Notes: generated by a model from the letters alone, not told the origin. A DNA stretch of 64,000 nucleotides from Nitrospinaceae bacterium (GCA_021604505.1 BQJC01000002.1:558001-622000); one strand, 5' to 3'. Shown: positions 45,633 through 61,233, counted from the stretch's first letter. Translations and numbers: made by a program.

Positions 45633-45677
45633 GTGGAGCTGGGGGGATTCGAACCCCCGACCTCTTGAGTGCGATTC
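45633..45677 (-). repeat. Partial tRNA-Ala copy: outer attachment-site remnant (left end of island 1)
   Basis: These 45 bases are identical to the 3' half of the tRNA-Ala gene (61160-61204), from the anticodon loop to the discriminator base plus one base. The rest of the tRNA is absent, so it is not a functional gene. Such 3'-end duplications in direct orientation are left when tyrosine-recombinase elements integrate into a tRNA gene. It marks the far left boundary of the accessory block. The surrounding gap (45404-46169) holds no gene; long minus-strand frames across this repeat are artefacts of the tRNA sequence. Confidence 0.88.
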
Positions 45678-45784
45678 CGAATCCAAAGAAACCGCCTAAG
45701 TAGGGTTTAGTCCTATCTAGTTGTGTTTGTTCTGTAAAACTGGCCTTCCTCAGACTACCATTTCCCGTTTGTTCCTGTCTGTTC

Positions 45785-45807
45785 ACTATACAGTCAACTA
45801 TACAGTC
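45785..45807 (+). repeat. Paired 11-bp repeat near the left end of island 1 (candidate arm sites)
   Basis: ACTATACAGTC occurs twice, at 45785-45795 and 45797-45807, about 108 bases inside the left attachment-site copy. A similar pair (TTTGGCTACAG twice) occupies the matching position in island 2. The second copies of both pairs end ACAGTCG. Short tandem repeats at this distance from the core are typical arm-type binding sites of tyrosine integrases. Confidence 0.5.
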
Positions 45808-46169
45808 GAAAATCAAAAGGCATGCTTTCGTCTGAGAGTTTCGTCCGGCCTCTCCCCCCTGGTTGACGATCATGTAATCGTCCCAAGGAATTGAGAAAAA
45901 ATCCGATATCCCTTTTTAAACTCAAATCTAAGTACCAGAACTTGACCCCCCTTTTTGGTTCCAGGCCACACTCAGTATTCAATTCTAAGAGTTTGTAAAA
46001 AAGAATAAACCGAAAATCCCGTTTTTATTTTCAATAAGTTATCAGGTATTGACATTAATCCTTGGCGGGCTTAATTTTTATTGAAATCCTGTTTGCCATT
46101 TAATGCGGTTTTCAATCGTCTTATCTTTGTTTACAGAGATGGGAGTTTTAAAATTATTTTTTTCAATTA

Positions 46170-49100
46170 ATGCATTATTCAATCAAGTTTTTTCTTAAAA
46201 GTCACATAAATTCCTCCTTCAAGGTGCCAGAAGGGAGCCGTCCCGTATGGCTATCCCAACGCATTTGGAATAATCATCCTTCAAGGTCGTTAAAGGTAAA
46301 ACGCCTTCAGTGGATCGTCATCCTTTTATGCTTGCCATTCCTTTTGGGAGTGGACACCCGAGAGCATGAGGCACCTGCCCGTCTGGTCTATTTCATTCCA
46401 AAGATCGTCAAGATAGAACAAGGCGGTTCCGCCGAAAAGGCCTTGAAAATTTATGAGGCCTGGAAAAATAAACCGGGTGGACCGGGACCCATCACAGAAA
46501 AAAAAATGATTGAAATTTATAAGGCGGCGGGAGAAGGAAGCACGGCGTTTAAGACACTGGCCCACCTCATCCAGGAGAATAAGATATCCAACCAGCACAG
46601 CGTTGAAATGGCGAAACACAGGGAACGTTGGATCGAAGAGATCGTTCTTAAAATTGGAGAGGATAACGGTTGGCAAATCGGACGGTCCGATTCAGGAAAT
46701 ACTTCAAGCGGGATGAAAAGCGATCTGGATCAAACGTTTTATGTTTTTGAACGCAGTTCCGATGGCAAATCTTTTGTCCGCAATGAAAAGCGCGATAATG
46801 AATTTATCGAGCTTTTCAAACAGAGATGGGAACAAAAACATCCGGGCATTTCCCTGGAGGCTCTGGACATCGCCTCCATTGAGGGACGCAACCGTTTCCC
46901 GGACCCCAGGGACACCACCATCGAGTTTTCCAAAAAGTTTCGCCGCACCATCGAGGCATTGAGAAATACACCGGGGGCCTATACTTATCCAGGCGCCGTG
47001 AAACAGCAAATGCAGCTTCGGGCTTTAAACGAAATCATCATGCAAAACCCCCGTGCCTATCAACTTTATGGTCCCTCGGGTGAAAGCCCGGAATGGAAAA
47101 AACTTCCTTTTAACTCGGAGGAAGCCATAAGAACGATGTTTGGAATCGAACCGGAACTGATGCCCGGCCATGCTTACGGCGCCGCTATGGCGAATCACCT
47201 GGAAATGCAGCGCTATATGAAAGCCAAAAAGTTTGAAAGCAAATACCACCTTAGAATCTGGGAGGATTCTCTGTTTGTTCTGTGGCTTGCTGAAAAGGGA
47301 CTGCAAAAAGAACACAAACTGGAATATTTTGATCTGGATCCCGATGAGAGAAAAATCCTGAATGAAGAGATCCTGGGGCGGCTATTTCCTGAGGACTCCG
47401 GCAAAAGAAGGCTGCATGAGATCGCTCTGGATATTTCCGCGGATTTACGATTGCTGCATAAAAACAAACCGGAGAAAATTTCAAGTTTTTCGGGGCAATC
47501 AGATGATGTCCTAAAAAACAGCAAGGTTCAGGAGCAGCTGATATTCAAAGAATTGGCCCAGGAGATGTTCGGGGATGATTTCGATCCCGATAATCCCTCA
47601 AGAAAACATATTGAAATGGCCATTCAGGAGCATCGCAAGCTGGCAAGCGAATTCGGTCTTGAATCGGTCTATAAAAGTTCGAAAGAGGCTCTTAAGCTGT
47701 TACTTGATCCCGGTGAAATCGATCCTTTTAATTTGGACCAATACCGCCACCTCACAACCTATGAAAACGATCCGAAATGGCCCGACATCAAAAAAAATAT
47801 AAAAGAGGCCGCCCATCTGACCTTCCTTTATTCACTTTATGATTTGGGAATCGTAAAGAGCGCTTCTCTCCTGAAACGATTGCGGCAGGATTTCCCCGGC
47901 AGCGATTTAAAGCTTCTGGGACTGTGGTTTCAGGGACGGCTGCAAGGGGTGGAGGGAGTTTTGCGATCTCCGGAATTGTATAAGCATCTTTATGGTGAAT
48001 ACCTTCGGGGAAGGCTGGTACAGCTGGATGACGGTGTACAGCGTCATATTCTTTCAGAAATCGGGTTTAAAAATGTTGAGAAGGCTAAACGCGTCAGGGG
48101 TTTTCTGGAGACCCGCCATCTGGAATGGAGTCTTGGAAAATTTGTCGGCAACAGAGTCTACGATCCCGGCAATATAGACGCCCTGGCCCAGATCGTCCGT
48201 GCCTATGTTGAAAGCAAGGGCGACATGAAACGGGTTGAAGTGGTTACCCTGGATGAAATCGTAATGGCCATACCGGTGTTTGGTCAGATTGTCTCCGCCT
48301 CCAGAGCGGACATCCCGGGACTTATTCTTATGGGAGCTGGAATGGCCTCCCCGGTGGGCGGGGGAGTTCTTCTTGTTTACAGTGTGGGACAGGCGGGGTA
48401 CGCCATTTTTGAACTGGAATATGCCCGGCCCGCTTCGGGAAATATCGTGAGCGCGGTCTACCGGGGGTTTGCAGGCCCCGAAATCGCTTTTTATGATGAT
48501 GCCCCGGAATTCACCTTGAGCGATCAGGAAGAGCTTACAAAGCTGGAAACCAAACTAAATGAGGAAGCGAAAAGAATTTTAAAAACGACTTATACCCCGG
48601 ATCGGCGTTTAAGGGAGTGGGGAGACCTTGACGAACAAAAAAGAAAAGAAAAAGCGGAATATGACCGGGTGGCCGGTCAGATTCAGCCTAAGATCAACCT
48701 GTTGCTAAAAAAGAAAAAGATCTGGGAAGATTTCCGGGATCCTTCAGCTTATGGAGGATTCTTTACCGGGGCCGGGGCGCAGTTGGAGTTGAAGCTCTTC
48801 GAAAACTACCTTCTCAAGGAGGTTGAGCCGATCATCAGTTTTTCCCCCGCAGGCATCGTCGATTTTCGCGCTGATTTTGACCCTGTTAAAGATAAAAAAA
48901 AATTGAAAGAACTTGAAGAAGAAATAAAGAATGCCTCAGGGGTAGAGGAGATGTTAAGAGCGGCGGCGGAATATCAGGAGTTGAACCTTCAAAAAGCGCA
49001 ATACGAAAGAGCCCAGCGCTATTTAAAGCGGGCGTTAAAACGTGCGGACAGTACGGAAGGCATGACCAAAATCGAAGCAAAATTATTGTCACCCGAGCTG

Positions 49101-51140
49101 ATGTTCAAGCTCAAGCGGGACAGCCTGTATCCGTGGCTGACGGAAAAGGGATTCACCAACCCGGATGCCTTTATCGATCAGTGGCTGAAAGACAATGATG
49201 AGAAAGAAATCGTGTCGCAACTGGTTCGCAAAGGGTTGATGCGGGCGAAAATCCCCGTGGGGACGAGTGAATTCGGAGCCAGCCAACAGCCCATCATGCC
49301 AGAGTCTCTCCCATCCAACACCCTGGAGCAGCTAAAAGAGCAGGTCTACCATGATTTCATGAAGAGCGCGAACCTCTACCAAGAATTTCAAAAAAGAGAA
49401 AAACTACGGAAGAAGAAAAGCGAAATAGAAATCCAAAACCGAATCAACGCCTATCAGGCCGAAGCGGCGGGAATTTTTGCTCAGCAAATTAATAAAAAAC
49501 CCGAGCTGCGAAATCAAATGGCGGAAATTTTAACGGCCATGCGTTGGGTGGCTGTAAAACGGAATCCACCAAAGATCGATGCGACGGTCTATCATATTTC
49601 CGACAAGGAAAGAACATCTGGACATTCAGAAAACCCGAAAAAGGAAATTCATGAATTTAAGGTCAGCGTAAAAATCCAGGCCGATCCCAAGTTATACACC
49701 CCTCCGTATCATACCGAAGTGCATTTTTTAAATAAATCGGATGCCAAGAGAGCCGTGAGTACAAAAAGGATAAAAAGGATGGCACTGGGAGAGGATCTGG
49801 TCGAACTCCTCAAGCGAACCCTTGAAAAAAAGGCCACCAATTTAAAAGACGATGAGGTGCTTATCACGCTGGTCAGCGTATTTGCTTCCGGGATGCCGGA
49901 TTTGAAAAACGCTATTCCCGAAACCATAGAGGAACTGCCAATAACCAGGGTTTCCCTGAACGGAAAACAGTTTTATCTAATGGGACAATCTCTAGGATTT
50001 GAAAGATTGATCCCTAAGAAGGAAAAACCCAAAACAATCGGAAACTTCGTTTTGAGCCATAAATCCCAACCGGTCCAGGAGTATGTTCAAAAAGTAAGGG
50101 CGGCTTTGCCGGCGGCTTCTTTGGAAGAAAATATTCCAGGGTTAACCCAGTTCATCGTTTCTAATATCAAAAAGAAAAAACCGAAAAAGGCGCACCGTTC
50201 GGCGGTGTCTATTGAGCCAAAAGTCGAAAGGGTAGGGATCAATGCCGAAAAAGCGAAGAAACGGTATGCCGCCGCTAAAAGACTGGATCGAAAACCTTAC
50301 ATGGCTTATGCAGCAAGAAACTATATCGGAAGAGTGAGTAAAAATTATCTGATACGGGCGAATTGCAACGGTCAAGTCAACTACATGTTTGTAGTCAATC
50401 CTCATTTAAGGGAAAGAAGAACGTTTGGAACGAAATTCTGTCTGGGCTTGCCCAATGGCAAGCATAACGTGGCCGTTTCCCTGATTACCGAAGATGGGGA
50501 AACTTTTTCAGATTCCTTTTCAATTCAAGTCGAGATAAAAAATGGATTCAAGCTCACACAATTGCGGGAAAAATTGGGCAGAGCCAGGCAAAAAGTGGCC
50601 GAGTTCGATCCTAAAGGGTTCAGGTATATGTACGCCCAAGGGGAACTGGGCAATTTAATTGGCAGTAATGTTCGCTACACCCGGGCCTTGATAGACCAAG
50701 GTCAGGGCACCGCAAAAGACATTTTGCCCTTGATCAGGGAAAGGGTTCGATGGGCGGAAAAATACCTGCAAATCAAAACAGATCCGCAGCGAAAAATAAC
50801 CCCGGAGCGACTGCGGGGAAGCTACTTTAAAAACCTAAAGGGGGCCATCAAAATGCTAGCAAAGGTCGGGGGACCTGAAGCTTTGGCGCTTGCCAAAGAG
50901 TTGCTTCCTAAAGCACAATCCGTATCCAAGACTCCTTCTGGAATGACAGGCACCTATCGCGACATGGTGCATTTATTCATTGGGGCGGCCAATGATGTTG
51001 CAAGCGCCCGAGGCTACCTGGAAAAAAATCTTAACCTGTGGAGAACTGGCGGTATCGGCGGGGGCACTCCCCAACCCCTGACGGAAGATCAGAAAAACAG
51101 AAAACGGCAGGATTGGCCCCGGCAAATGACCCTTCCATGA
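46170..51140 (+). CDS. Giant exported protein of island 1 (1656 residues), unknown function
   Basis: A hydrophobic segment (LQWIVILLCLPFLLGV, residues about 47-62) follows a basic stretch and probably directs export; the start may also be a GTG at 46224. The bulk is helical and charged. Residues about 705-755 are strikingly apolar and Gly-rich (DIPGLILMGAGMASPVGGGV then LLVYSVGQAGYAIFELEYA), a candidate membrane-inserting hairpin. Residues about 830-1000 look like coiled coil. Residues about 1395-1465 (YLIRANCNGQVNYMFVVNPH, KHNVAVSLITEDGETFSDSF) look like an Ig-type beta domain, and the C-terminus is helical and ends Pro/Arg-rich. I recognise no family. An exported ankyrin protein follows seven bases later. 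An envelope toxin or surface protein is possible, but not shown. Confidence 0.7.
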   Translation: MHYSIKFFLKSHINSSFKVPEGSRPVWLSQRIWNNHPSRSLKVKRLQWIVILLCLPFLLGVDTREHEAPARLVYFIPKIVKIEQGGSAEKALKIYEAWKNKPGGPGPITEKKMIEIYKAAGEGSTAFKTLAHLIQENKISNQHSVEMAKHRERWIEEIVLKIGEDNGWQIGRSDSGNTSSGMKSDLDQTFYVFERSSDGKSFVRNEKRDNEFIELFKQRWEQKHPGISLEALDIASIEGRNRFPDPRDTTIEFSKKFRRTIEALRNTPGAYTYPGAVKQQMQLRALNEIIMQNPRAYQLYGPSGESPEWKKLPFNSEEAIRTMFGIEPELMPGHAYGAAMANHLEMQRYMKAKKFESKYHLRIWEDSLFVLWLAEKGLQKEHKLEYFDLDPDERKILNEEILGRLFPEDSGKRRLHEIALDISADLRLLHKNKPEKISSFSGQSDDVLKNSKVQEQLIFKELAQEMFGDDFDPDNPSRKHIEMAIQEHRKLASEFGLESVYKSSKEALKLLLDPGEIDPFNLDQYRHLTTYENDPKWPDIKKNIKEAAHLTFLYSLYDLGIVKSASLLKRLRQDFPGSDLKLLGLWFQGRLQGVEGVLRSPELYKHLYGEYLRGRLVQLDDGVQRHILSEIGFKNVEKAKRVRGFLETRHLEWSLGKFVGNRVYDPGNIDALAQIVRAYVESKGDMKRVEVVTLDEIVMAIPVFGQIVSASRADIPGLILMGAGMASPVGGGVLLVYSVGQAGYAIFELEYARPASGNIVSAVYRGFAGPEIAFYDDAPEFTLSDQEELTKLETKLNEEAKRILKTTYTPDRRLREWGDLDEQKRKEKAEYDRVAGQIQPKINLLLKKKKIWEDFRDPSAYGGFFTGAGAQLELKLFENYLLKEVEPIISFSPAGIVDFRADFDPVKDKKKLKELEEEIKNASGVEEMLRAAAEYQELNLQKAQYERAQRYLKRALKRADSTEGMTKIEAKLLSPELMFKLKRDSLYPWLTEKGFTNPDAFIDQWLKDNDEKEIVSQLVRKGLMRAKIPVGTSEFGASQQPIMPESLPSNTLEQLKEQVYHDFMKSANLYQEFQKREKLRKKKSEIEIQNRINAYQAEAAGIFAQQINKKPELRNQMAEILTAMRWVAVKRNPPKIDATVYHISDKERTSGHSENPKKEIHEFKVSVKIQADPKLYTPPYHTEVHFLNKSDAKRAVSTKRIKRMALGEDLVELLKRTLEKKATNLKDDEVLITLVSVFASGMPDLKNAIPETIEELPITRVSLNGKQFYLMGQSLGFERLIPKKEKPKTIGNFVLSHKSQPVQEYVQKVRAALPAASLEENIPGLTQFIVSNIKKKKPKKAHRSAVSIEPKVERVGINAEKAKKRYAAAKRLDRKPYMAYAARNYIGRVSKNYLIRANCNGQVNYMFVVNPHLRERRTFGTKFCLGLPNGKHNVAVSLITEDGETFSDSFSIQVEIKNGFKLTQLREKLGRARQKVAEFDPKGFRYMYAQGELGNLIGSNVRYTRALIDQGQGTAKDILPLIRERVRWAEKYLQIKTDPQRKITPERLRGSYFKNLKGAIKMLAKVGGPEALALAKELLPKAQSVSKTPSGMTGTYRDMVHLFIGAANDVASARGYLEKNLNLWRTGGIGGGTPQPLTEDQKNRKRQDWPRQMTLP

Positions 51141-51147
51141 GATTGTT

Positions 51148-52857
51148 ATGAAAATTCATTCTCGTTTTATTCTTTTGGTTTGTATTTCATGGGTTGTTTC
51201 GGCAGCCTTTATCCCTATTTATAACCCTACACTTTCAGCACAGGAAAAATCCCCAAACTGCGATCCGTCGCTCGCCAAACTGGGGAAAAGGATTCAAATT
51301 TATGAAGTCATAAGGGGGAAACTGCCTGAGAAATTGTCCGACCTATACATTCACCAATTCGTAAAGGAGTTTGGGGATTTTCAATGTATGCCATCTGAAG
51401 ACCCGATCGAATTGCAGGAAGAAATAGAGGAGAACTCCCACTTCGAACTTTTGCCCGACCCGAAACCCGGTGACCGGGAACCCGTTCTGGTCACAAAATC
51501 TACCGTAGGGACGCCCAGGCGGGCTTTCCTCAGAAATGGGGAAATAATCAATTGGGGCGAAGAAGAAGCTCCTCCTTCCGCCCAAATAATTGAAAGACCT
51601 CGGCCTCAGGAATTATCAAACCTGGACCGGGAACTTCTTGATGCGGTCAAAAAAGGGGATTTAGATCGAGTCAGGCAGGCAATCAGTGATGGCGCGAATG
51701 CGAATGCTCAGGGTAAAGACGGTTCGAACCCCCTCGGAAAGGCGGCCAGTGGGGGGTATCTTGAGATTGTCAAGACTCTGATTCAGGCTGGGGCCGATGC
51801 CAATTGGGAAGCGCCCCGCGGGCAGACCGCTTTGAATGTGGCTGCTGGTATGGGGAACAGTGATGTATTGCAAGCCTTGATCGAAGCGGGAGCGGATGTG
51901 AATCAGAAAATAAAAAGCAATGAAGCCCCCAAACGCTATCAGGGGGCAACCCCCATTTTTATAGCAGCCGAGTTCGACAGATCCGAGACCCTGCGGGTTT
52001 TGATCGATTCAGGGTCAAACGTAAATGCAGTCAATAAATTGGGAATGACCCCTCTTTTGATGGCCTCCCTTTCGGACAATTTGCGTGCTTTGCTAACCTT
52101 GATTGAGGCAGGAGCGGATGTGAATGCAAAAACAACCGGTGTTGTTGAACCCTCCGGTCCCCCGAAGGACAGCACCGCGCTGATGGGAGCTGCTATAAAT
52201 GGAAACCTCAGAACCGTACAGGTTTTGCTTCTCGCCGGAGCCGAAGTTGATGCAGAAAATGGAGACGGGAAGACTGCATTGCAATACGCCTCTGAAAAAG
52301 ATCGTACAGAGATAGTTCGGCTACTTCAGCAACCTTTAAAAGCCAAAAATCTTGCAAAACAATCCATGGAACAGGACCTGGTTGATATTCTGGAAAGCGA
52401 AGAAACGGAACTATTGAAAGGTCTCCTCAGACTCGGTCTGAACCCAAATATTCGAGACAAAAATGGAAAATTTATTTTGATCAAGGCAATGGAACATTCT
52501 TCTTTGGATACTATAAAGGCTTTGGTCGAAGCGGGGGCGAATGTGAATGTTCTGGACCCAAAGTATGGAGCCACTCCGCTGATGTTTGCGGCCGCGGAAG
52601 GTCGAAATGACATCGTAAAACTCCTTATTCAATCCGGAGCAGAAATCAATGTAAAAAGCGGGGTAGGATTTGAAGATGAGGGCGGTTGGACCGCCTTGAT
52701 GGCTGCCGCGATGGAGGGTCATGCCCAGGTGGTCGCTGAACTGCTTTCGGGAGGAGCCGATCCAAAAGCAGTAAATAGCTCTGGGAAAACAGCCCTGGAT
52801 ATCGCTAAAAAAGAGAACAACCCCGACGTCGTCCGCTTGCTGGAAAAAAGTTTATAA
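51148..52857 (+). CDS. Exported ankyrin-repeat protein
   Basis: A signal peptide (residues 1-31, VCISWVVSAAFIPIYNPTLS) is followed by an N-terminal domain (about 35-140) with LAKLGKRIQIYEVIRGKLPE, similar to the flanking segment of pseudopilin-like proteins. From residue 155 to the end there are about ten ankyrin repeats (SNPLGKAASGGYLEIVKTLI, TALNVAAGMGNSDVLQALIE, ATPLMFAAAEGRNDIVKLLI). The 569-residue protein is predicted to be periplasmic. The seven-base spacing from the giant gene means the two are cotranscribed. Periplasmic ankyrin proteins can act as immunity proteins to envelope-acting effectors; that reading is inference here. Confidence 0.85.
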   Translation: MKIHSRFILLVCISWVVSAAFIPIYNPTLSAQEKSPNCDPSLAKLGKRIQIYEVIRGKLPEKLSDLYIHQFVKEFGDFQCMPSEDPIELQEEIEENSHFELLPDPKPGDREPVLVTKSTVGTPRRAFLRNGEIINWGEEEAPPSAQIIERPRPQELSNLDRELLDAVKKGDLDRVRQAISDGANANAQGKDGSNPLGKAASGGYLEIVKTLIQAGADANWEAPRGQTALNVAAGMGNSDVLQALIEAGADVNQKIKSNEAPKRYQGATPIFIAAEFDRSETLRVLIDSGSNVNAVNKLGMTPLLMASLSDNLRALLTLIEAGADVNAKTTGVVEPSGPPKDSTALMGAAINGNLRTVQVLLLAGAEVDAENGDGKTALQYASEKDRTEIVRLLQQPLKAKNLAKQSMEQDLVDILESEETELLKGLLRLGLNPNIRDKNGKFILIKAMEHSSLDTIKALVEAGANVNVLDPKYGATPLMFAAAEGRNDIVKLLIQSGAEINVKSGVGFEDEGGWTALMAAAMEGHAQVVAELLSGGADPKAVNSSGKTALDIAKKENNPDVVRLLEKSL

Positions 52858-52934
52858 TCGGGATTGGAATCAGGAGCTTGTTTCAAGCGCTGCAATTCGA
52901 GATTTTAAAATTCATGGCCCGGTGTTGATGTCAA

Positions 52935-53702
52935 TCAGTAGCAAAGGGCGGGGGGGCCACGCCAATCATTTTTCCCGCATAAATTTCTGATTTCCCTGCA
53001 AACCTCTTCTTTTGTTCCTTCGGTTATTTTTCTCAGATCCGGGTAAGAAGTCCTGTAAATATCTTTTCCTCTTTCGTATTTTGATTTTTGAAAGGAATTG
53101 CTCCAACCCCAGAGCGCGAATTTTCGAAGCCGCTCCACCTTTCTCTGGCCCGCAATTAAAACAAAATTAGTGATAATGTGATCGTAAAGAGCAAATCTCC
53201 TGAATCCGAAGCCCGATGAGTACAACACACAACCATCAACCATCGTTTCGGCTTTATCCACTGGCAACGAAACATCGCCATCGGTGGAATCGGAAATGAA
53301 TGATTTCCCAAAATACTCCGGAAAAATCTCCCATTCCCTTACTTTTTTTGCGGCGCCGGAAACCCAGTACCGTTCGGAAATTGACCGGACTTTCGGACGC
53401 GTTTTCCTGGCCTCGGCAGTTACCTCTACATTTCCTCGGGGAAGGAAATGGCTTAAAATCATCCTTTTTCCAGGAGGAACTTCCACTTCTTCCACTGGGT
53501 GATCGCGCAGGCCAGATGGATCTTCCAATATCCTCGAAGCGCTGATGGTTAAAGTGGCATTGGTATTGTTATGAATGACCAGTGTTCCTTTTCTTGGATC
53601 TGTCATTTCACCCGTATCTTGTCCGGCCTCTGAATAATTTCCTGAACCAAACACTACCAAGTAAAAAATAATGAATGGGAGATGGATAAAAATTTTTTTC
53701 AC
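52935..53702 (-). CDS. Exported protein of island 1, unknown function
   Basis: AGGAGGG lies six bases before a GTG at 53702, giving a 255-residue product. It has a signal peptide (IFIHLPFIIFYLVVFGSG) and a beta-rich body beginning KGTLVIHNNTNATLTISASR, a domain like those of small secreted beta-sandwich proteins. The second half has LYDHIITNFVLIAGQRKVER and conserved-looking Cys pairs (CREIRNLCGK). No family recognised. Its stop faces the ankyrin gene. Confidence 0.6.
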   Translation of the reverse strand: MKKIFIHLPFIIFYLVVFGSGNYSEAGQDTGEMTDPRKGTLVIHNNTNATLTISASRILEDPSGLRDHPVEEVEVPPGKRMILSHFLPRGNVEVTAEARKTRPKVRSISERYWVSGAAKKVREWEIFPEYFGKSFISDSTDGDVSLPVDKAETMVDGCVLYSSGFGFRRFALYDHIITNFVLIAGQRKVERLRKFALWGWSNSFQKSKYERGKDIYRTSYPDLRKITEGTKEEVCREIRNLCGKNDWRGPPALCY

Positions 53703-53791
53703 GGCTCTCCCTCCTGTTATTATTTTGCTTGCCAATCATCAAATTAATGGCAGGACTCATTCACTTTTTCCATCTGAAAATGTAATCTTAT

Positions 53792-54841
53792 TTAAAATTC
53801 CGGAAGATCAATCTCCACTTTACCGTTCACAACAATTTTTGACGGTAAAATATCAACTCTTTCAACATGGTCAGGTGCACGATTTTTCTTGTAAAAGGAA
53901 GTGTGATGTCTTAGATGGAAAGTTTCCGTATTGATAATAAACAATCCTTGCCCATCTGTCCCCGCAATTAAGTAGGGCCCTTTATTTTTGAGGACAGTGG
54001 GATAAAACCATTTGTAATCTTTGTAATAAAGAATGTAGTATTCGCCCGTTTTGGTGTCGTGGACATCAATACCCAGATGTTCGCGGGCAAAATAAATCCT
54101 GTCTCCAATTTTTAACTTTTTAATAATCTCATCATATTCATCCGTTACCGGGTTTTTGTACTTTTTGATGGATAATTCCCCGTCTTCTATATTCCCATTA
54201 TTTTTTTTCCAAATGTAGACCGCATAATGGGGGTCTTTTAGATCAAGATCACTTTCGTCCATATATCCTTCTTCAAATTTAATTATTTCCAAAAACTTTT
54301 TTTCGTTGGAAAGGTTTTTATTGGTGAAATTTTCACTTCTGAACACGCCCGGAATGGGATACGCTTGCTCATTATGAGGAAATTCCATCCCCAATTGCAT
54401 GACCTCAAGGTATTTGGGGCAAAATAAATTCAAACTCCTGTAAGAACTTCCGCTTCCGCCCCCTGCAGTCTGGAAAAAAACATCCTCATGGTCGTTTCCT
54501 TTTAATAAAACCGCTCCAACTTTCAAAAATCCCTCCATACCGATTGAAAAGGTTAAGGTGATTGGATGGTTTTTAAAAGTTAAGCTGTAATCTCCAAAGC
54601 CGGGATCAGGCCCCTTGCGTTCGAATACAGCGATTCTGTTTATTTCTCCATTTTTCATGCTGACTTCAATCTTGACTTGCTTTTCCTTCCTCCAATCTTC
54701 TTCACCTCCGGGGTGGGGATGAAATTTAATTTGATTTTTTGTGGATGACGAGGTGTTTTTCTTCTCCTCTGCTTTAGCCTCGTCCCCAATCATTATTAAA
54801 AGCGAAATCAAAATCAATAAGGAGCAGGTTTTCTTAAACAT
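53792..54841 (-). CDS. Exported protein of island 1, unknown function (349 residues)
   Basis: A signal peptide (LLILISLLIMIGDEAKA) precedes a beta-rich, charged, lysine/asparagine-rich body with VKIEVSMKNGEINRIAVFER, IGDRIYFAREHLGIDVHDTK and GPYLIAGTDGQGLFIINTET. No family recognised. AAGGGGGG lies before the ATG. The gene is more A/T-rich than the core genes. It lies 89 bases upstream of the next minus-strand gene and may share its transcript. The 332 bases between this gene and the next plus-strand gene are AT-rich and show no gene. Confidence 0.6.
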   Translation of the reverse strand: MFKKTCSLLILISLLIMIGDEAKAEEKKNTSSSTKNQIKFHPHPGGEEDWRKEKQVKIEVSMKNGEINRIAVFERKGPDPGFGDYSLTFKNHPITLTFSIGMEGFLKVGAVLLKGNDHEDVFFQTAGGGSGSSYRSLNLFCPKYLEVMQLGMEFPHNEQAYPIPGVFRSENFTNKNLSNEKKFLEIIKFEEGYMDESDLDLKDPHYAVYIWKKNNGNIEDGELSIKKYKNPVTDEYDEIIKKLKIGDRIYFAREHLGIDVHDTKTGEYYILYYKDYKWFYPTVLKNKGPYLIAGTDGQGLFIINTETFHLRHHTSFYKKNRAPDHVERVDILPSKIVVNGKVEIDLPEF

Positions 54842-55173
54842 AGGTTCTACCCCCCCTTCTGAAATTCAAGACACTTCACCTGAACCAAATGGCCTTGATT
54901 AGAAGCCATTTGGAACTATCCGAATTTCATGTTCTTTTTAAATATATATACGAGGAAATATATTCCTTTAACTATTACTGTCAAATTGGACTATTCCGCA
55001 TGGAGAAATATTCTATTCCTCCATGAAACCATAATTATAATTTGGTCAGCATCCTAGGTACCGTACCTGACTAAAGTTTAGAATTCGGTTAAAATTAAGT
55101 TTTTCAGAGGTGATGATTTTGCAATGAGAGGAGGAGGTCGATTTCTGGATTTGGAATAGGGGATGAAAGGAAA

Positions 55174-55578
55174 ATGATTTTTAGACGGATGATCGGAACT
55201 GCCGTTATTTTGATTTGGTTCATCACATTGGGGTTCGTTTGTGGGCCCCTGCGCTGGGAGTTTGCCCATACTTATCGAAACTTGATAAACGGGTTCGAAG
55301 ATTCTTTGCCCGTGCTCACTACCGTCCTGGGATTACCGGTATTAGGAATTGGGGATCAAACGTTTATGTCAATCTTTGTGGTAGTCGTGCTCGGAGGGAT
55401 TACATGGTTGGGTCCGGCAACCCTGCTTGTTGGGGTATGGCGTTTTCCGAATCGGGAAAAGTTTTCTGACTGGTTACTGTTTGGGGGTTCCCTCTACGTT
55501 GCGATTATCCTTCTGTTTACAATCTTGCTGGCAGTCAGTTTTTGGCTTCCATTCAGCCTTTTGTGGTCAGGGGGTTGA
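55174..55578 (+). CDS. Small membrane protein of island 1
   Basis: AAAGGA lies just before the ATG. The 134-residue product has about three membrane helices: GTAVILIWFITLGFVCGPL, MSIFVVVVLGGITWLGPATL and LYVAIILLFTILLAVSFWLP. No family recognised. It lies about 110 bases inside the right boundary of island 1. Confidence 0.6.
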   Translation: MIFRRMIGTAVILIWFITLGFVCGPLRWEFAHTYRNLINGFEDSLPVLTTVLGLPVLGIGDQTFMSIFVVVVLGGITWLGPATLLVGVWRFPNREKFSDWLLFGGSLYVAIILLFTILLAVSFWLPFSLLWSGG

Positions 55579-55687
55579 CCTGCTCACCGAAAACCGGTCC
55601 AGTTCATAAGTTGAGTCAATGTTGCCCTTTTGCTGACTTAATACAAAAAAGGGCGAAGTTTGAGGACCTAACCGCTTGATTTTAAAA

Positions 55688-55726
55688 TGGAGCTGGGGGG
55701 ATTCGAACCCCCGACCTCTTGAGTGC
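55688..55726 (-). repeat. Partial tRNA-Ala copy: attachment-site junction between islands 1 and 2
   Basis: These 39 bases are identical to the tRNA-Ala 3' end (61161-61199) and to the left repeat at 45634-45672, in the same orientation; identity stops in the anticodon loop. It is the junction left after two successive insertions at the same tRNA. The 55579-56355 gap around it contains this repeat, the paired repeat at 55891 and one doubtful small ORF, but no clear gene. Confidence 0.88.
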
Positions 55727-55890
55727 CATTTTAGTGGGCTAAATTCACCATTTTTCAAAAGTCAATTTTCAGCCGCCTTATAAAGCATTTATTTAAAACA
55801 ATTTAGGCGTCTTTTGAGCCACTATCTTTTTCTTGCCTTTTCAGACCTCTTTCCCCTATTTTCCGGTATTTTCCCCTCAATTCTGAGAAT

Positions 55891-55912
55891 TTTGGCTACA
55901 GTTTGGCTACAG
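55891..55912 (+). repeat. Perfect tandem 11-bp repeat inside the left end of island 2 (candidate arm sites)
   Basis: TTTGGCTACAG occurs twice without a gap, 165 bases from the attachment-site copy. A related pair (ATTGGCTACAA, TTTAGCTACAC) lies near the other end of the island at 60894-60915 in the same orientation. Confidence 0.55.
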
Positions 55913-56179
55913 TCGTGTTGGGAGCCAAGTGAAACTTCCTTCTAAATAACCCTAACCTCCGTTGCTCTTACTGTGCCATGTTTAGGGCATTTTAAGATGA
56001 CCATGGTGCTACCTATCCATAAAATGGTACGCAATGAAACCGATTAACCCTAGAGACGTTTTTCCACCTTAATTTGCATGTATTTCATAAACATCCACCC
56101 AAAATAAGGAATAAAACCATTTTATTTTTGCTCTTAAAAAAGACATTGGAAAACTATTCTATTCTCAAGCCATACTTGA

Positions 56180-56284
56180 ATGAAAGGAGCAAATTTTCAA
56201 GAAATAGTAACCGTCATATGGCAAATCTCGGTTAATGGGATTAATAGAGTTAAAATTAATATCGCAACAAGATTAGGAAATTAA
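56180..56284 (+). CDS. Doubtful 34-residue ORF before the radical SAM gene
   Basis: ATG at 56180 to TAA at 56282 encodes MKGANFQEIVTVIWQISVNG and INRVKINIATRLGN. It lies 71 bases upstream of the radical SAM gene in the same direction. Small peptides before SPASM-type radical SAM genes are sometimes modification substrates. However, no ribosome-binding site precedes this ATG (AAAGGAG lies just inside the ORF), and the sequence has no known precursor motif. Confidence 0.2.
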   Translation: MKGANFQEIVTVIWQISVNGINRVKINIATRLGN

Positions 56285-56355
56285 AGTGAAAGAACTCCTA
56301 GGGAAGTTCTAAAGTTCCATGAGCAAATAGATCTAAACCAATCTTCTTTTGATTA

Positions 56356-57438
56356 ATGGTTCGGGTTACAAGGAAAATGTTAAGAAACCCAAATTCTCTT
56401 CCCCTTGTTTTCTGGGAGACCACAACAGCTTGCAACCTCGAATGTGTGCACTGCCGACGACTGGAAGTCGCCCAGGAACCGTCACGGGAGGATCTCTCTC
56501 TCAAGGAAGTTTTTCATTTCATTGAAGGGCTTGCAGATCATTTCGAGCCTTCCCCGATTCTTGTTCTTAGCGGTGGAGAACCTTTAGTCCGCCCAGATAT
56601 TTGGGATATTATAAGGTTTGCCGAAAATAAAAACGTCCCGTTGGCCTTAGCAACGAATGGAACATTGATAGATGCCCCCATTGCAAAGAAAATCGCTTCC
56701 TCAGGAATTAAACGGGTTTCCATCAGCTTGGACGGAGCCTGTCCAGACACACATGACAGTTTTCGGAAAATGTTGGGATCTTTTGAAAAGGCCATTAGTG
56801 GCATTTCCCACCTCCGTTCTTTAAATGTTCCGTTTCAAATCAATACAACGCTGACCCGGCATAATTTAGGTGAACTTGAAGCGATTTACCGGTTTTGTCT
56901 CGAACTGGGTGCCGACAGCCTGCATTTTTTCATGCTGGTTCCTGTGGGTTGCGGAATGGAGATTAAGGAAGAATATCAATTGAGTGCCGAAGAATATGAG
57001 GAGAGTCTTCTAAGAATTCATCAGTTTTCCCGTGAAGGAAAGATCCACATACGACCGATTTGCGCACCCCATTATTTTAGAATCCTAGCGCAAAATAAGG
57101 CTCCCTTGCCGCGAAGAAATAATATCCCCAACATGAACCAATTGACCAAGGGCTGTCTCGCCGGGACAGGTATCTGTTTTGTTTCGCATAAAGGAGAAGT
57201 CTTTCCTTGTGGGTACCTTCCAATGATTTGTGGAAATATCAGAGAACAAAGCCTTAAAGATATCTGGGAAAACTCCACAGTTTTTGATTCATTGCGTGAT
57301 GCGAACCTTTTAGAAGGCAAATGTGGGTTGTGCCAATTTAAGAGAATTTGTTCCGGTTGCCGGGCGCGGGCTTTTGAGGAAACTGGAAACTATCTTGAAG
57401 AGGAACCGAATTGTCTTTACGAACCGAAACCTGGCTGA
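56356..57438 (+). CDS. Radical SAM-SPASM enzyme of the AhbD/NirJ group
   Basis: This 360-residue enzyme has the radical SAM cluster motif in TTTACNLECVHCRR (CxxxCxxC, residues about 27-34), ILVLSGGEPLVRPDIWDIIR, LATNGTLI and SISLDG. The C-terminal SPASM-type part is KGCLAGTGICFVSHKGEVFP, CGYLP, CGNIREQSLKDIWENS, then GKCGLCQFKRICSGCRARAF and EEPNC. This layout is that of haem-pathway enzymes: AhbC/AhbD (alternative haem synthesis) and NirJ (haem d1). The same architecture also serves peptide-modifying enzymes. No other haem genes are near, so a haem role is doubtful; the two following genes are unknown. The start may be the ATG at 56377. Confidence 0.8.
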   Translation: MVRVTRKMLRNPNSLPLVFWETTTACNLECVHCRRLEVAQEPSREDLSLKEVFHFIEGLADHFEPSPILVLSGGEPLVRPDIWDIIRFAENKNVPLALATNGTLIDAPIAKKIASSGIKRVSISLDGACPDTHDSFRKMLGSFEKAISGISHLRSLNVPFQINTTLTRHNLGELEAIYRFCLELGADSLHFFMLVPVGCGMEIKEEYQLSAEEYEESLLRIHQFSREGKIHIRPICAPHYFRILAQNKAPLPRRNNIPNMNQLTKGCLAGTGICFVSHKGEVFPCGYLPMICGNIREQSLKDIWENSTVFDSLRDANLLEGKCGLCQFKRICSGCRARAFEETGNYLEEEPNCLYEPKPG

Positions 57439-57441
57439 TTT

Positions 57442-58416
57442 GTGGCTGGAATCATAGCCGACATTAATATTTCTAAGATTTTCATGGAACAACTAACTAA
57501 ACTTCCCGAACGGCTTAACTTTGACGGCAAAGTAAACCTTTACTGTCTGCATGAAGTATTCAGACATATCGCGTCAATTGTTTCTCATCGGATGCGTGAG
57601 GAACATCAGATTGATATTTCTATTCCTTCGGGATTGTGGGGGGGAGCCTATCTGGTGGCCGATGAGGAAGGAACAGTCATATCACGAGTCATTCGTTTTT
57701 ACAGCATTGTTAACCTGCCGCAGAACAGTCCTCTTGACAAGGAAGAAAACTTTGAACGTTTAATGGTAATTTATTACCAAACATGCCAAAGCATTTTCAA
57801 ACATTACGGGCTGATATTTGAAAATCCACAATGGGGAGAACCCATTCCCTACACCAATAGAATTAAACCCACCACCTCACTGCAAATGTGGGAAACCAGT
57901 AATACCGAGATAAGTTTCCTACGCGCTTTCTTCGTCTGGAACACCGCGACGTGGGAAGAGTCTCTCATCTTTGACACCCTCCGCAATATAAAGCAACTTA
58001 AGGAATTACTCGATCTCAACCAGCGGCCTCCTAATAAAGTAAAGGAAGAACTCCGGTTCGCTTTGCAGGATATCCTCATTGTCTATTACACCTTGCGGGA
58101 CGCATTGACACCGGATTTCATGGAACACGCCGAGCCATTTATGAAGGAATTACTCGGACATTTCAAGGTGGGTTTGCATGATAACGACCTTATCCATGAT
58201 CTGTTTTACAGAGCCTATTCTAGTGCCTTTATTTACGGATTCGAAGAGGCGCTCCTGGGACCTTATAATCGACATAACCTGGATATTCACAAAGTCGAAG
58301 ATTGGCCGGTGGAAAAAATTAACTGGATCCCGGAGGAACTTAAAAAAAAGCTCATTCCCCCGCTCAAGGCTACCTTCTCGGGGTTCGAGGCCAATCTGAA
58401 AAAGGAGGCTTTTTAG
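57442..58416 (+). CDS. Unknown helical protein following the radical SAM gene
   Basis: The frame starts at a GTG four bases after the radical SAM stop; the ATG at 57484 is an alternative. The 324-residue product is soluble and helical, with LYCLHEVFRHIASIVSHRMR, IFKHYGLIFENPQWGEPIPY, a central helical pair and RAYSSAFIYGFEEALLGPYN. There is no signal peptide, metal motif or known fold I can identify. The tight spacing indicates that it works with the radical SAM enzyme, for example as a partner or substrate-handling protein; this is inference. Confidence 0.65.
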   Translation: MAGIIADINISKIFMEQLTKLPERLNFDGKVNLYCLHEVFRHIASIVSHRMREEHQIDISIPSGLWGGAYLVADEEGTVISRVIRFYSIVNLPQNSPLDKEENFERLMVIYYQTCQSIFKHYGLIFENPQWGEPIPYTNRIKPTTSLQMWETSNTEISFLRAFFVWNTATWEESLIFDTLRNIKQLKELLDLNQRPPNKVKEELRFALQDILIVYYTLRDALTPDFMEHAEPFMKELLGHFKVGLHDNDLIHDLFYRAYSSAFIYGFEEALLGPYNRHNLDIHKVEDWPVEKINWIPEELKKKLIPPLKATFSGFEANLKKEAF

Positions 58417-58584
58417 AATAGTAACTAAACCCCTGGCATCCAGATGTGCGCTGAAAGCAAATATAATTAGGATGGATTTTTTTGCTTAGAAGATAGCTTT
58501 TTGTTGTGCCCGGCTAGACGAAATATCCCTTTGCTCGAATGGGAATGGGAGCCCAATTAAATTTTCCGGCAATCAGGTTTCCTC

Positions 58585-60456
58585 ATGTTTAAAGAAGAAG
58601 AACTTATCGCTTCCCTCACTCGACCGAAGAGCATTCGGTTCAACGCTAATCATGCAGAAGTTTTGGCAATCAAAAATCAGTTTGCCGACTTCCAAAAAAC
58701 AACAATTGACGGCAGAACCTTTTGGTTCCTCAACGACCAGCCAAATGTCCTCAATACAAGGATTCAGGTCTATCCGACGGGACACATGGTGTTTTATAAC
58801 TCCGAGGGAAAGCGTTTTCTATTCACCGACCCGGAGGGGCATCCCCTGCACGAATGCGAATGGAAAAGAGAAGAAGGTTCAGGAAAAATCAAGCTGGTTT
58901 TAGTCCGCATGCAACTCGATTGCGGGCAATGGTTTGGCATCAAACCGGAAGCGAAAACATTTTCCACTTTTCTGGACTTAAAAGATCAACCAGGATCAGC
59001 AAACATCACCTTGGACGAGCTGAGAAGCAAAGTAGCTCAAGCCTGGGATATCCCCTTTTCCGATGTAAAACATTTTTACAGAGATGAGAATTTTGTTCCC
59101 TTGGGGGTAGGGGAGTTTGACATTAACCTTTCCAAAGACGGGCTCTATGTATTGGTGGACGGCACGTTCGACCAGACGATTTTCATCAGCTACATGCCGA
59201 AGGTGAAGTTGGACCCACTGGATGTCATTCCGGTGGTGGAACTCTTTCAATCGGCTCCCCCTGGCGCGGGCGGTGCCGGTTTTGAGCTCTTTTGGGGCTT
59301 ATATGACGATCAATCTCGAGAAACCAAGCCGGAACCCTTAAGGTTTCGGGGTCTGCCGGTTTACCCAACGAAAAAGGCGTTTGAGATATTTACTGCCTAT
59401 TTTACCCCCACCGCTCCTGAGGGTGAGGACCTCATGGAGATTTTCATGGATCACCACCGCGCCTACCAGATTACCTGGGGCCTTAGACCAGATCCTCCCT
59501 GGCGATATTTTAGCGATGAGAACTCCGTTTGCTTGACGGTACAAGATCATTTTCCCTTTAAAGCCACAGGCTTGAATGACCCCGTAGCTCTGCCTTTTAT
59601 CAATTGCTCCCGGGGAGGAAAGGCGCCTTGCCAACGAGATCTTGTGGTTAAAGATGACTCAATCTTGTTAGTGGATGGCAACGAAGTGTGCCGGGAAATT
59701 CCTTTATTGCCCCTGTGGAAAATTTCTCCACAGCCCGAGACCAAAATTCAACCACCCCTTTATCCCTTCAATTGGAGATGGTTTTTTAAAGGATGCACTC
59801 CGAAAGTTGATCCGGTCAAGGCCATTCTTACCGTGCCCTTCTACCCCGAGGGAAAATCCGAAATCGAGGAGTTATCCCTTCAACCGATGGTTATAGATCA
59901 GATTTTTTATTACATGGAAATGTTTCCTGATATGCCGAACTGCTTGGAAAAGGTCGACCGGGTCCTTATCCACAATTTCGATACGGTAATTTCTGGCTGC
60001 ATCGATTGTACACATAAACGTGAATATAAAGTCTTATTTAACGATCCTGAGTTTGCCCAAAAAAACGCACAACTATTATGGGATTATGCTGCTTCTCGAA
60101 ACCAACTTGAGGAACTCAGAGAAGTTTCTTTTCTTGCGGAAAAAGAAAACGTGGAGTCGGCATACAACGAAGAATATGGGATGATCTTTCGATGGATTCC
60201 TTTCAAGCATTATCGCGACCCCGCAACCTTGGAAAATATTGTAATCTCAATAACGCAGGCTTTAGGCCTAAACGGACTATTATTTCTTGTAGGCCCCCGG
60301 CAGTTGACAGAGTTGTTTGCACACCATTCATTAGAATGTATTTATGGTGATCCCGTCGATAATATGCCCTTTTTGTTCCAGCACCGGAAAATGTATCCTG
60401 AAACTCAGGTAAACCCCGATGTAACAGTATTTTTTGCTCAAAAAGTTATCTCTTGA
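58585..60456 (+). CDS. Unknown 623-residue protein of the radical SAM unit
   Basis: This soluble protein without a signal peptide seems to have several parts. A beta-rich N-terminal part (GRTFWFLNDQPNVLNTRIQV, YPTGHMVFYNSEGKRFLFTD) is followed by a middle part with QSAPPGAGGAGFELFWGLYD. The C-terminal 170 residues (VDRVLIHNFDTVISGCIDCT, NIVISITQALGLNGLLFLVG) end in alpha/beta segments that faintly recall a Rossmann or methyltransferase-like fold. Its last part has CIDCTHK but no clear SAM-binding glycine motif. I recognise no family. It lies 168 bases after the previous gene, in the same direction. That gap shows no gene. Confidence 0.65.
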   Translation: MFKEEELIASLTRPKSIRFNANHAEVLAIKNQFADFQKTTIDGRTFWFLNDQPNVLNTRIQVYPTGHMVFYNSEGKRFLFTDPEGHPLHECEWKREEGSGKIKLVLVRMQLDCGQWFGIKPEAKTFSTFLDLKDQPGSANITLDELRSKVAQAWDIPFSDVKHFYRDENFVPLGVGEFDINLSKDGLYVLVDGTFDQTIFISYMPKVKLDPLDVIPVVELFQSAPPGAGGAGFELFWGLYDDQSRETKPEPLRFRGLPVYPTKKAFEIFTAYFTPTAPEGEDLMEIFMDHHRAYQITWGLRPDPPWRYFSDENSVCLTVQDHFPFKATGLNDPVALPFINCSRGGKAPCQRDLVVKDDSILLVDGNEVCREIPLLPLWKISPQPETKIQPPLYPFNWRWFFKGCTPKVDPVKAILTVPFYPEGKSEIEELSLQPMVIDQIFYYMEMFPDMPNCLEKVDRVLIHNFDTVISGCIDCTHKREYKVLFNDPEFAQKNAQLLWDYAASRNQLEELREVSFLAEKENVESAYNEEYGMIFRWIPFKHYRDPATLENIVISITQALGLNGLLFLVGPRQLTELFAHHSLECIYGDPVDNMPFLFQHRKMYPETQVNPDVTVFFAQKVIS

Positions 60457-60557
60457 AATTTATTCCAAAATTAAAGCATTCAAACTGTTCCGGTCAAATA
60501 TTCCCGCATACCGCGTAAACTCTGGGGCCTGGTCGCAAATAAAGTCTTGCTTAATCA

Positions 60558-60800
60558 ATGCAAATTTTCAGGAAAAATTTAGCTGTTAGATTAGAAGGGA
60601 GTTTTCGGCTTACCAGCCTTTGCCGTCGAGAGGGCATTCCCTCCAACCTGTACTACCGCTGGAGCCAAGATTTTCTGGAAGCAGGTAAAAAGCGTCTCAT
60701 GGAAGACACCGCCCACGAGGAAAACTCTCAAGAAGTCACCGATATTAAAAAAATGAGACCGAGCAATTAAAACAACAACGTCATGCGAGTATGCTTAGAG
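60558..60800 (+). pseudogene. Fragment of an IS3-type transposase OrfA (helix-turn-helix)
   Basis: FRLTSLCRREGIPSNLYYRW and FLEAGKKRLMEDTAHEENSQ are the helix-turn-helix of IS3-family OrfA. The frame stops at 60770 after a run of seven A (60749-60755). One base shift there continues into ETEQLKQQRHASM, the expected coiled-coil start, so the gene has a frameshift. No OrfB and no IS ends were seen. This is a decayed insertion sequence inside island 2, not a source of integrase for the island. Confidence 0.75.
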
Positions 60801-60893
60801 GCCCGATGACGACTAAAACTTCCTCATAAAAAATAATCCCGAAAACAAAAAAAGTCAGTCCGAATAGGCACGACATCTTTAGGGCTCAATTCG

Positions 60894-60915
60894 ATTGGCT
60901 ACAATTTAGCTACAC
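60894..60915 (+). repeat. Paired repeat inside the right end of island 2 (candidate arm sites)
   Basis: ATTGGCTACAA and TTTAGCTACAC are adjacent 11-base units with the core GCTACA, matching the perfect pair at 55891-55912 in sequence, period and orientation. They are 245 bases from the tRNA-Ala 3' end. With the left pair they frame island 2 symmetrically. Confidence 0.5.
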
Positions 60916-61121
60916 TGCATCGAAATGGGAGGTTTTTGAAGACTATAAACCTTTTCAATTTAAGGAGTTCGATAAGCAAAAGGTTTTTGACTCCTTGAAT
61001 GTTTTTAAAGCAGTCAGAAAAAAGAAGATTCCAAAACCTAGATAACTCTTTTTAAAGTAATGGCTAAGCGTACTCACCTTTTCTAAGTGATTGCTTGAAT
61101 CCTTTGCCAAACAACAAAAAG

Positions 61122-61152
61122 GGTTTAAGGCAAAATGCCCTAAACCCTTATG
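61122..61152 (-). terminator. Rho-independent terminator downstream of tRNA-Ala
   Basis: On the minus strand AAGGGTTTAGGGC, a short loop and GCCTTAAACCCTT form a strong stem, then TTTTTGTTGTTT. It lies about 10 bases beyond the tRNA 3' end. It sits on the island side of the attachment site, so the present terminator arrived with island 2 or its end. Confidence 0.75.
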
Positions 61153-61160
61153 AATAAAAG

Positions 61161-61233
61161 TGGAGCTGGGGGGATTCGAACCCCCGACCTCTTGAGTGCG
61201 ATTCAAGCGCGCTCCCAACTGCGCCACAGCCCC
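61161..61233 (-). tRNA. tRNA-Ala (anticodon CGC)
   Basis: Read on the minus strand the gene begins GGGGCTGTGGCGCAGTTGGG and ends CCCCCCAGCTCCA, with no encoded CCA. The acceptor stem GGGGCTG/CAGCTCC contains the G3-U70 pair that is the alanine identity element. The D stem GCGC/GCGC, the anticodon stem CTTGA/TCAAG around the loop ATCGCAC (anticodon CGC, reading GCG codons) and the T arm GGGGG-TTCGAAT-CCCCC are intact. It is the full-length copy and the integration target of both islands. Confidence 0.95.

Follow-up and report, generated by a model that had tools for sequence, protein, structure and literature searches.

The window analysed here is a stretch of 64,000 nucleotides (G000:C2:558001-622000) from the 3.64-Mb, 14-contig genome of a marine nitrite oxidiser of the Nitrospinaceae (G000, hereafter the host), whose nearest relatives in genome searches are the Nitrospinaceae. 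Towards the right-hand side of the window, three intact open reading frames (ORFs) on the + strand encode proteins of 360, 324 and 623 aa (Table 1). The first is a radical S-adenosylmethionine (SAM) enzyme with a SPASM domain; the other two are referred to here as P324 and P623. All three are contained in a short islet beside a tRNA-Ala gene, and an earlier note on this DNA had taken them for a mobile three-gene unit that could synthesize a modified peptide, a tetrapyrrole or another small molecule, or could serve defence. Codon comparison with homologues showed that the three genes are under purifying selection (pN, the nonsynonymous measure, 0.17-0.19, with synonymous sites near saturation).

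Table 1. Positions of the genes, repeats and other features of the two tRNA-Ala islets, counted from the first letter of the window
Feature	Position	Strand	Remark
Exact repeat (45 nt) of the 3' end of tRNA-Ala	45633..45677	+	Far end of islet A; 0 expected by chance
Exact repeat (39 nt) of the 3' end of tRNA-Ala	55688..55726	+	Left end of islet B, attachment (att)-like; 0 expected in shuffles
Tandem 11-bp pair TTTGGCTACA	55891..55911	+	Candidate integrase arm-type sites
Radical SAM/SPASM protein, AhbD clade, 360 aa	56356..57438	+	Probable oxygen-independent coproheme decarboxylase/haem b synthase (TIGR04545)
P324, additional paralogue within a core family of the Nitrospinales	57484..58416	+	Listed from GTG 57442 (324 aa)
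P623, extra paralogue of a Nitrospinota family, 623 aa	58585..60456	+	Residues ~455-620 resemble a divergent class-I SAM methyltransferase
Transposase helix-turn-helix remnant	60558..60770	+	PF01527, 24.0 bits versus a cut-off of 24.1
Second tandem 11-bp pair ATTGGCTACA / TTTAGCTACA	60894..60914	+	Matches the pair near the other end of islet B
Intact tRNA-Ala (CGC)	61160..61233	-	3' end at 61161-61199 (+ strand coordinates), the right end of islet B

An islet at the 3' end of tRNA-Ala

The three genes lie on a mobile islet of 5.4 kb (islet B, 55727-61160) inserted at the 3' end of tRNA-Ala. Its boundaries are marked by exact 39-nt repeats of the tRNA-Ala 3' end that flank the region and of which none is expected by chance, so that the description of the genes as island-borne in the earlier note holds. 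The G+C content is about 40-47% around islet B, compared with about 45-53% across most of the window. No integrase is present in islet B, and the transposase remnant lies on its right side. The paired 11-bp repeats near both ends are suggestive of integrase arm sites, which they resemble; it should be noted that this motif, at up to one mismatch, occurs at six sites in the window against 3.6 expected and is not rare there by itself. In the genome G057, the same tRNA-Ala stands beside rpsT and holA, and the next gene, putatively radC-like by its sequence, comes straight after it without an islet in between. In four congeners, an intact tRNA-Ala was not found at the corresponding place, two of the four stretches stopping soon past rpsT.

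A second islet (islet A, 45678-55687) is situated upstream, in tandem with islet B. It carries a 1656-aa protein without a Pfam match, an ankyrin protein of 569 aa (214 bits with the padloc candidate model PDC-M72A) and three small genes.

The radical SAM enzyme and haem synthesis in its host

The islet enzyme matches PF04055 and PF13186 above their cut-offs, and TIGR04545 (AhbD) is the best of 84 families (412.2 bits, E 1.9e-123), with a lead of 85 bits over the next; the identification of an AhbD/NirJ-like radical SAM-SPASM enzyme in the earlier note is supported. When aligned with its homologues, the enzyme possesses the CxxxCxxC radical SAM cysteines and those of the SPASM auxiliary clusters. 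Homologues at 71-72% identity are present in two same-family genomes (G023, contig C130; G048, contig C113), and the nearest ones outside the Nitrospinales, at 53-56% identity, are those of G001, G002 and G003. The last three score 496, 508 and 511 bits, respectively, with TIGR04545, and those of G002 and G003 pass its cut-off. In a tree of 15 proteins, all from Nitrospinota, the islet, G023 and G048 copies join the G001 copy and the AhbD-passing G002 and G003 proteins at a fork supported at 97/97; both AhbC and the core NirJ2-like paralogue fall outside this AhbD clade. The scores with the NirJ-type models are 300 bits for NirJ2, 191 for NirJ1 and 180 for NirJ, against cut-offs of 500, 650 and 515, none of which is reached. 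Judging from these sequence comparisons, the islet enzyme most probably belongs with the AhbD-type haem enzymes, although it falls short of the strict AhbD model. A NirJ2-like core paralogue that ends in a PCP_red domain is likewise encoded by the host. On plasmids, only TIGR04053-type homologues of about 36% identity were found.

The neighbourhoods of the enzyme differ from one genome to another. The genes of G002 and G003 stand beside AhbC/NirJ1-type genes and that of G001 beside hemB, G001 being, like the host, a genome without AhbC. In both G023 and G048, a hypothetical gene with a similar tail lies upstream and the visible neighbours are not P324 or P623. A porin-like gene is nearby in both genomes, and the G048 copy adjoins a c554-like multihaem cytochrome. 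The earlier note had named, as a finding that would speak against it, close homologues of all three genes inside a known haem operon; half of this is the case, in that close homologues of the enzyme do stand beside ahbC or hemB and those of the partners do not.

What is found of the haem pathway of the host gives a setting for such an enzyme. AhbC was found in no Nitrospinales genome among those searched, the host included, and the siroheme route is therefore incomplete. In nine of the nine Nitrospinota genomes tested, again with the host among them, HemF was not found and no HemN scored above the cut-off. The host and most Nitrospinales do have a strong Chlor_dismutase-family (ChdC/Cld) protein, which in the host is fused to a PCP_red domain. 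The absence of HemF, AhbC and any above-cut-off HemN, together with the ChdC/Cld protein, fits a coproporphyrin-dependent route in which coproheme would be the last intermediate. AhbD makes haem b from coproheme in an oxygen-independent reaction, and its gene can lie together with hemY/hemH/hemQ (PMC10548856). Haloferax volcanii has both ChdC and AhbD, and loss of ahbD impairs anaerobic growth only (PMC5746218), which provides a precedent for an AhbD-type enzyme in a ChdC-type host. Searches of the literature returned nothing relevant on Nitrospina and radical SAM enzymes, nor on haem biosynthesis in Nitrospinae and oxygen minimum zones.

PCP_red fusions were seen in the ChdC/Cld-family protein (L127:6575-7540, G000:C1), in the order-wide NirJ2-like radical SAM protein (L112:9330-10673) and in a universal stress protein (L009:3855-5546).

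The P324 and P623 families

The islet P324 and P623 are extra, divergent paralogues of two lineage-specific families. Most Nitrospinales genomes contain the P324 family twice, and 63 of the 77 genomes of the phylum contain it at least once; the P623 family has one copy in nearly every Nitrospinales genome and is present in 55 of the 77. The host itself carries core P324 and core P623 sets besides the islet copies. The partners had been called unrecognised; this is right in that no Pfam or NCBIfam family takes them in, and wrong in that they are near-universal Nitrospinales paralogues, also found elsewhere in the host genome. Their spread outside Nitrospinota was surveyed by one pattern scan, and this picked up only a few of the copies already known. 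Viral contigs yielded no relatives of either protein.

In the trees, the islet P324 and P623 fall together with their counterparts from contig L009 and from contig C32 of G023, in clades that are separate and have full support. The islet-type clade of P324 lies inside the radiation of core copy 1, and that of P623 is next to the copy from G001, a genome from outside the order. In both C32 and L009, P324 and P623 are adjacent and followed by a rubrerythrin-like gene, and the islet enzyme is not among the genes seen. The C32 pair is preceded by a 698-aa radical SAM-like protein; the L009 contig begins just before P324, its upstream side being out of view. L009 is labelled as a gammaproteobacterial metagenome-assembled genome and is suspected to be a mis-binned contig. 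The rubrerythrin-like gene after the extra pair (L080:9912-10460, L009:3286-3801) is missing from the window islet. The gene-neighbourhood survey that the earlier note had recommended thus returns the P324-P623 pair at two other loci, and the adjacent trio of enzyme, P324 and P623 in this genome only. The enzyme and the partner pair occur apart elsewhere, and a conserved three-gene unit is therefore not supported.

The homologues of P324 start at or near Met residue 15 of the listed frame. The likely start is therefore the ATG at 57484, which gives a protein of 310 aa and a gap of 45 nt after the enzyme gene, instead of the 3-4 nt that follow from the listed GTG; a partner starting four bases after the enzyme, as first described, is not borne out by the homologues. 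Neither P324 nor its homologues gave a convincing match in Pfam or NCBIfam, and a PDB profile search returned no relative. The structure models of P324 and P623 were predicted from three to four sequences each. That of P324 is of low confidence (predicted local distance difference test score, pLDDT, of 56) and places two β-hairpins ahead of a helical C-terminal half, so that only part of the '324-residue helical protein' remains helical. With this model, Foldseek gave nothing significant (best E 0.08, OsmC-like). Core P324 copy 1 (L068:9851-10795; equivalents in L074, L077, L081 and L085) lies near an M16 peptidase/lipoprotein pair, and most of these five loci also have, close to it, an ilvD-like gene adjoining a DUF4080 B12 radical SAM gene.

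P623 follows P324 after 168 nt. No Pfam or NCBIfam family passes for it, and its homologues give no convincing match. Its model has a mean pLDDT of 37, yet nearly every Foldseek match to it is a class-I SAM methyltransferase (best E 4e-4, probability 1.00), and sub-threshold CheR (PDB profile) and weak Pfam methyltransferase matches fall in the same C-terminal region. The protein has a conserved segment, LxPxGxLFLVGP, and, by eye, an aspartate that fits the post-I acid. Also by eye, the glycine-rich motif I is not seen at its expected place, where a conserved VLIHxFDxxxxGC stands instead, which makes catalysis uncertain. As modelled, the C-terminus of P623 resembles a divergent class-I methyltransferase-like domain.

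Core P623 genes of the host, G025, G023 and G057 lie near a protein matching TIGR03975, a C-methyltransferase family of ribosomally synthesized and post-translationally modified peptides (RiPPs), and near a PhpK-like B12 radical SAM enzyme. In the host, the TIGR03975 match (607 bits, cut-off 282) is two genes away from core P623; in G025 and G057 the two genes are divergent neighbours. The P623 gene of G001 is preceded by a further radical SAM gene. Core P623 genes are also found beside or near a TPR gene, and in many genomes one or the other of the TIGR03975 and PhpK-like genes is close by. At G047 and some other core P623 loci, no TIGR03975 or PhpK-like enzyme was found in the stretch read. 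The chance of a radical SAM neighbour within two genes on each side is about 5% (47 radical SAM matches), which supports the association of P623 with such genes, although the estimate is post hoc and the loci are not independent. A recurring radical SAM neighbourhood of P623 is likely. At the core loci L070:3452-11162 (G000:C3), L084, L073 and L082, core P623 is accompanied by a TIGR03975-passing protein, a PhpK-like B12 radical SAM gene and a large TPR gene. In L070 and L084, a conserved ORF of 107-109 aa that contains several cysteines is situated between the last of these and the TIGR03975 gene.

Interpretation and comparison with known systems

We favour, with a probability of roughly 0.6, the explanation that an AhbD-type haem enzyme was co-acquired on the tRNA-Ala islet with additional paralogues from two lineage-specific families. 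The enzyme would form haem b by decarboxylating two of the coproheme propionates, with SAM replacing O2 or H2O2. It might back up the ChdC-like protein, whose gene lies in another part of the genome, which would allow haem synthesis at low oxygen. P324 and P623 would not be needed for this reaction and would most probably work as a pair in connection with radical SAM or SAM chemistry. Several observations weigh against this explanation. The islet enzyme fails the equivalog cut-off of TIGR04545 (500 bits), and it and its two Nitrospinaceae homologues score only 412-420 bits. No haem gene adjoins it in the window, as the earlier note had correctly seen, and the ahbA/B/C and hemY/hemH/hemQ context is not encountered. 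The host Chlor_dismutase-family match does not separate ChdC from chlorite dismutase, and the haem-gene survey was confined to AhbC, HemF, HemN and the Chlor_dismutase family. The G023 enzyme copy lies 121 bp from a contig end, with its downstream neighbour out of view. Finally, the presence of three selected genes on one short islet is compatible with a joint function.

Such a function could be a single pathway in which the enzyme modifies a tetrapyrrole or another small molecule, P623 methylates it and P324 is a binding or scaffold partner. The genes are co-oriented, close together and each under purifying selection, and P623 ends in a methyltransferase-like domain; the tetrapyrrole-linked domain PCP_red is found as a fusion in the ChdC-like and core NirJ2-like proteins of the host, and also near the extra P623 in L009. 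However, the trio was found in this genome only, the enzyme in G023 and G048 has other visible neighbours, the pair in C32 and in L009 (as far as the latter can be seen) is without it, and P623 does not show motif I where expected. We thus consider both this pathway rather unlikely and the dedicated three-gene unit of the earlier note unsupported by gene neighbourhoods. A wider proposal, to which we give slightly less credit, is that P623 serves, frequently together with P324, as a general partner for diverse Nitrospinota radical SAM enzymes (AhbD-like, RiPP C-methyltransferase, PhpK-like B12 and two unclassified types), and that its pairing with a haem-type enzyme on the islet might lead to an undescribed methylated tetrapyrrole or other modified product.

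Less probable again is that P324 and P623 help in radical SAM RiPP maturation and that the islet makes a modified peptide. The TIGR03975 and PhpK-like enzymes near core P623 in four genomes, the radical SAM gene before P623 in G001 and the 698-aa protein before the extra pair in G023 would agree with it. Yet no precursor is recognisable among the small ORFs of the islet, which were listed without comparative analysis, the AhbD score of the islet enzyme is well above its score for any peptide maturase, and such enzymes are missing at some core P623 loci (for example, that of G047). A role of the islet as an anti-phage defence cassette, also raised in the earlier note, is highly improbable and was rejected. 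A small tRNA-linked islet, the weak viperin similarity of the enzyme and the padloc match of the ankyrin protein on islet A could recall such cassettes; the viperin (pVip) score is 66 bits compared with 412 for AhbD, padloc gives only this generic radical SAM similarity for the enzyme and nothing for P324 or P623, neither of which has relatives in viral contigs, and both partners are, unlike defence genes, near-universal in the order.

The supposed three-gene pathway is replaced by testable statements. Co-acquisition of an AhbD-type enzyme would bear on oxygen-independent haem synthesis in nitrite oxidisers that apparently have neither HemF nor HemN, and would indicate that a tRNA-Ala islet can carry such an enzyme. 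Two core gene families of marine nitrite oxidisers, P324 and P623, are retained by nearly all Nitrospinales and missing from all of the family libraries searched.

Compared with known systems, the islet differs from TIGR03975 RiPP loci in having neither a B12-dependent radical SAM gene nor a recognised precursor, although a core relative of P623 in the host genome has such an enzyme nearby. P623 shows no glycine-rich motif I of class-I SAM-dependent methyltransferases and its N-terminal 450 residues match nothing, whereas fold matches from a low-confidence model suggest a likeness to them in its C-terminal region. The islet enzyme shares a related radical SAM/SPASM fold with NirJ, NirJ1 and NirJ2 of haem d1 synthesis and scores far under their cut-offs. 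It departs from AhbD in its score (412 versus 500 bits), in its host genome without AhbC, in the absence of an adjacent haem gene and in its location on a mobile islet; yet it is AhbD that it resembles most, TIGR04545 being its top-scoring family over the full length, with the same cysteines, and its tree placement being among cut-off-passing Nitrospinota AhbD proteins.

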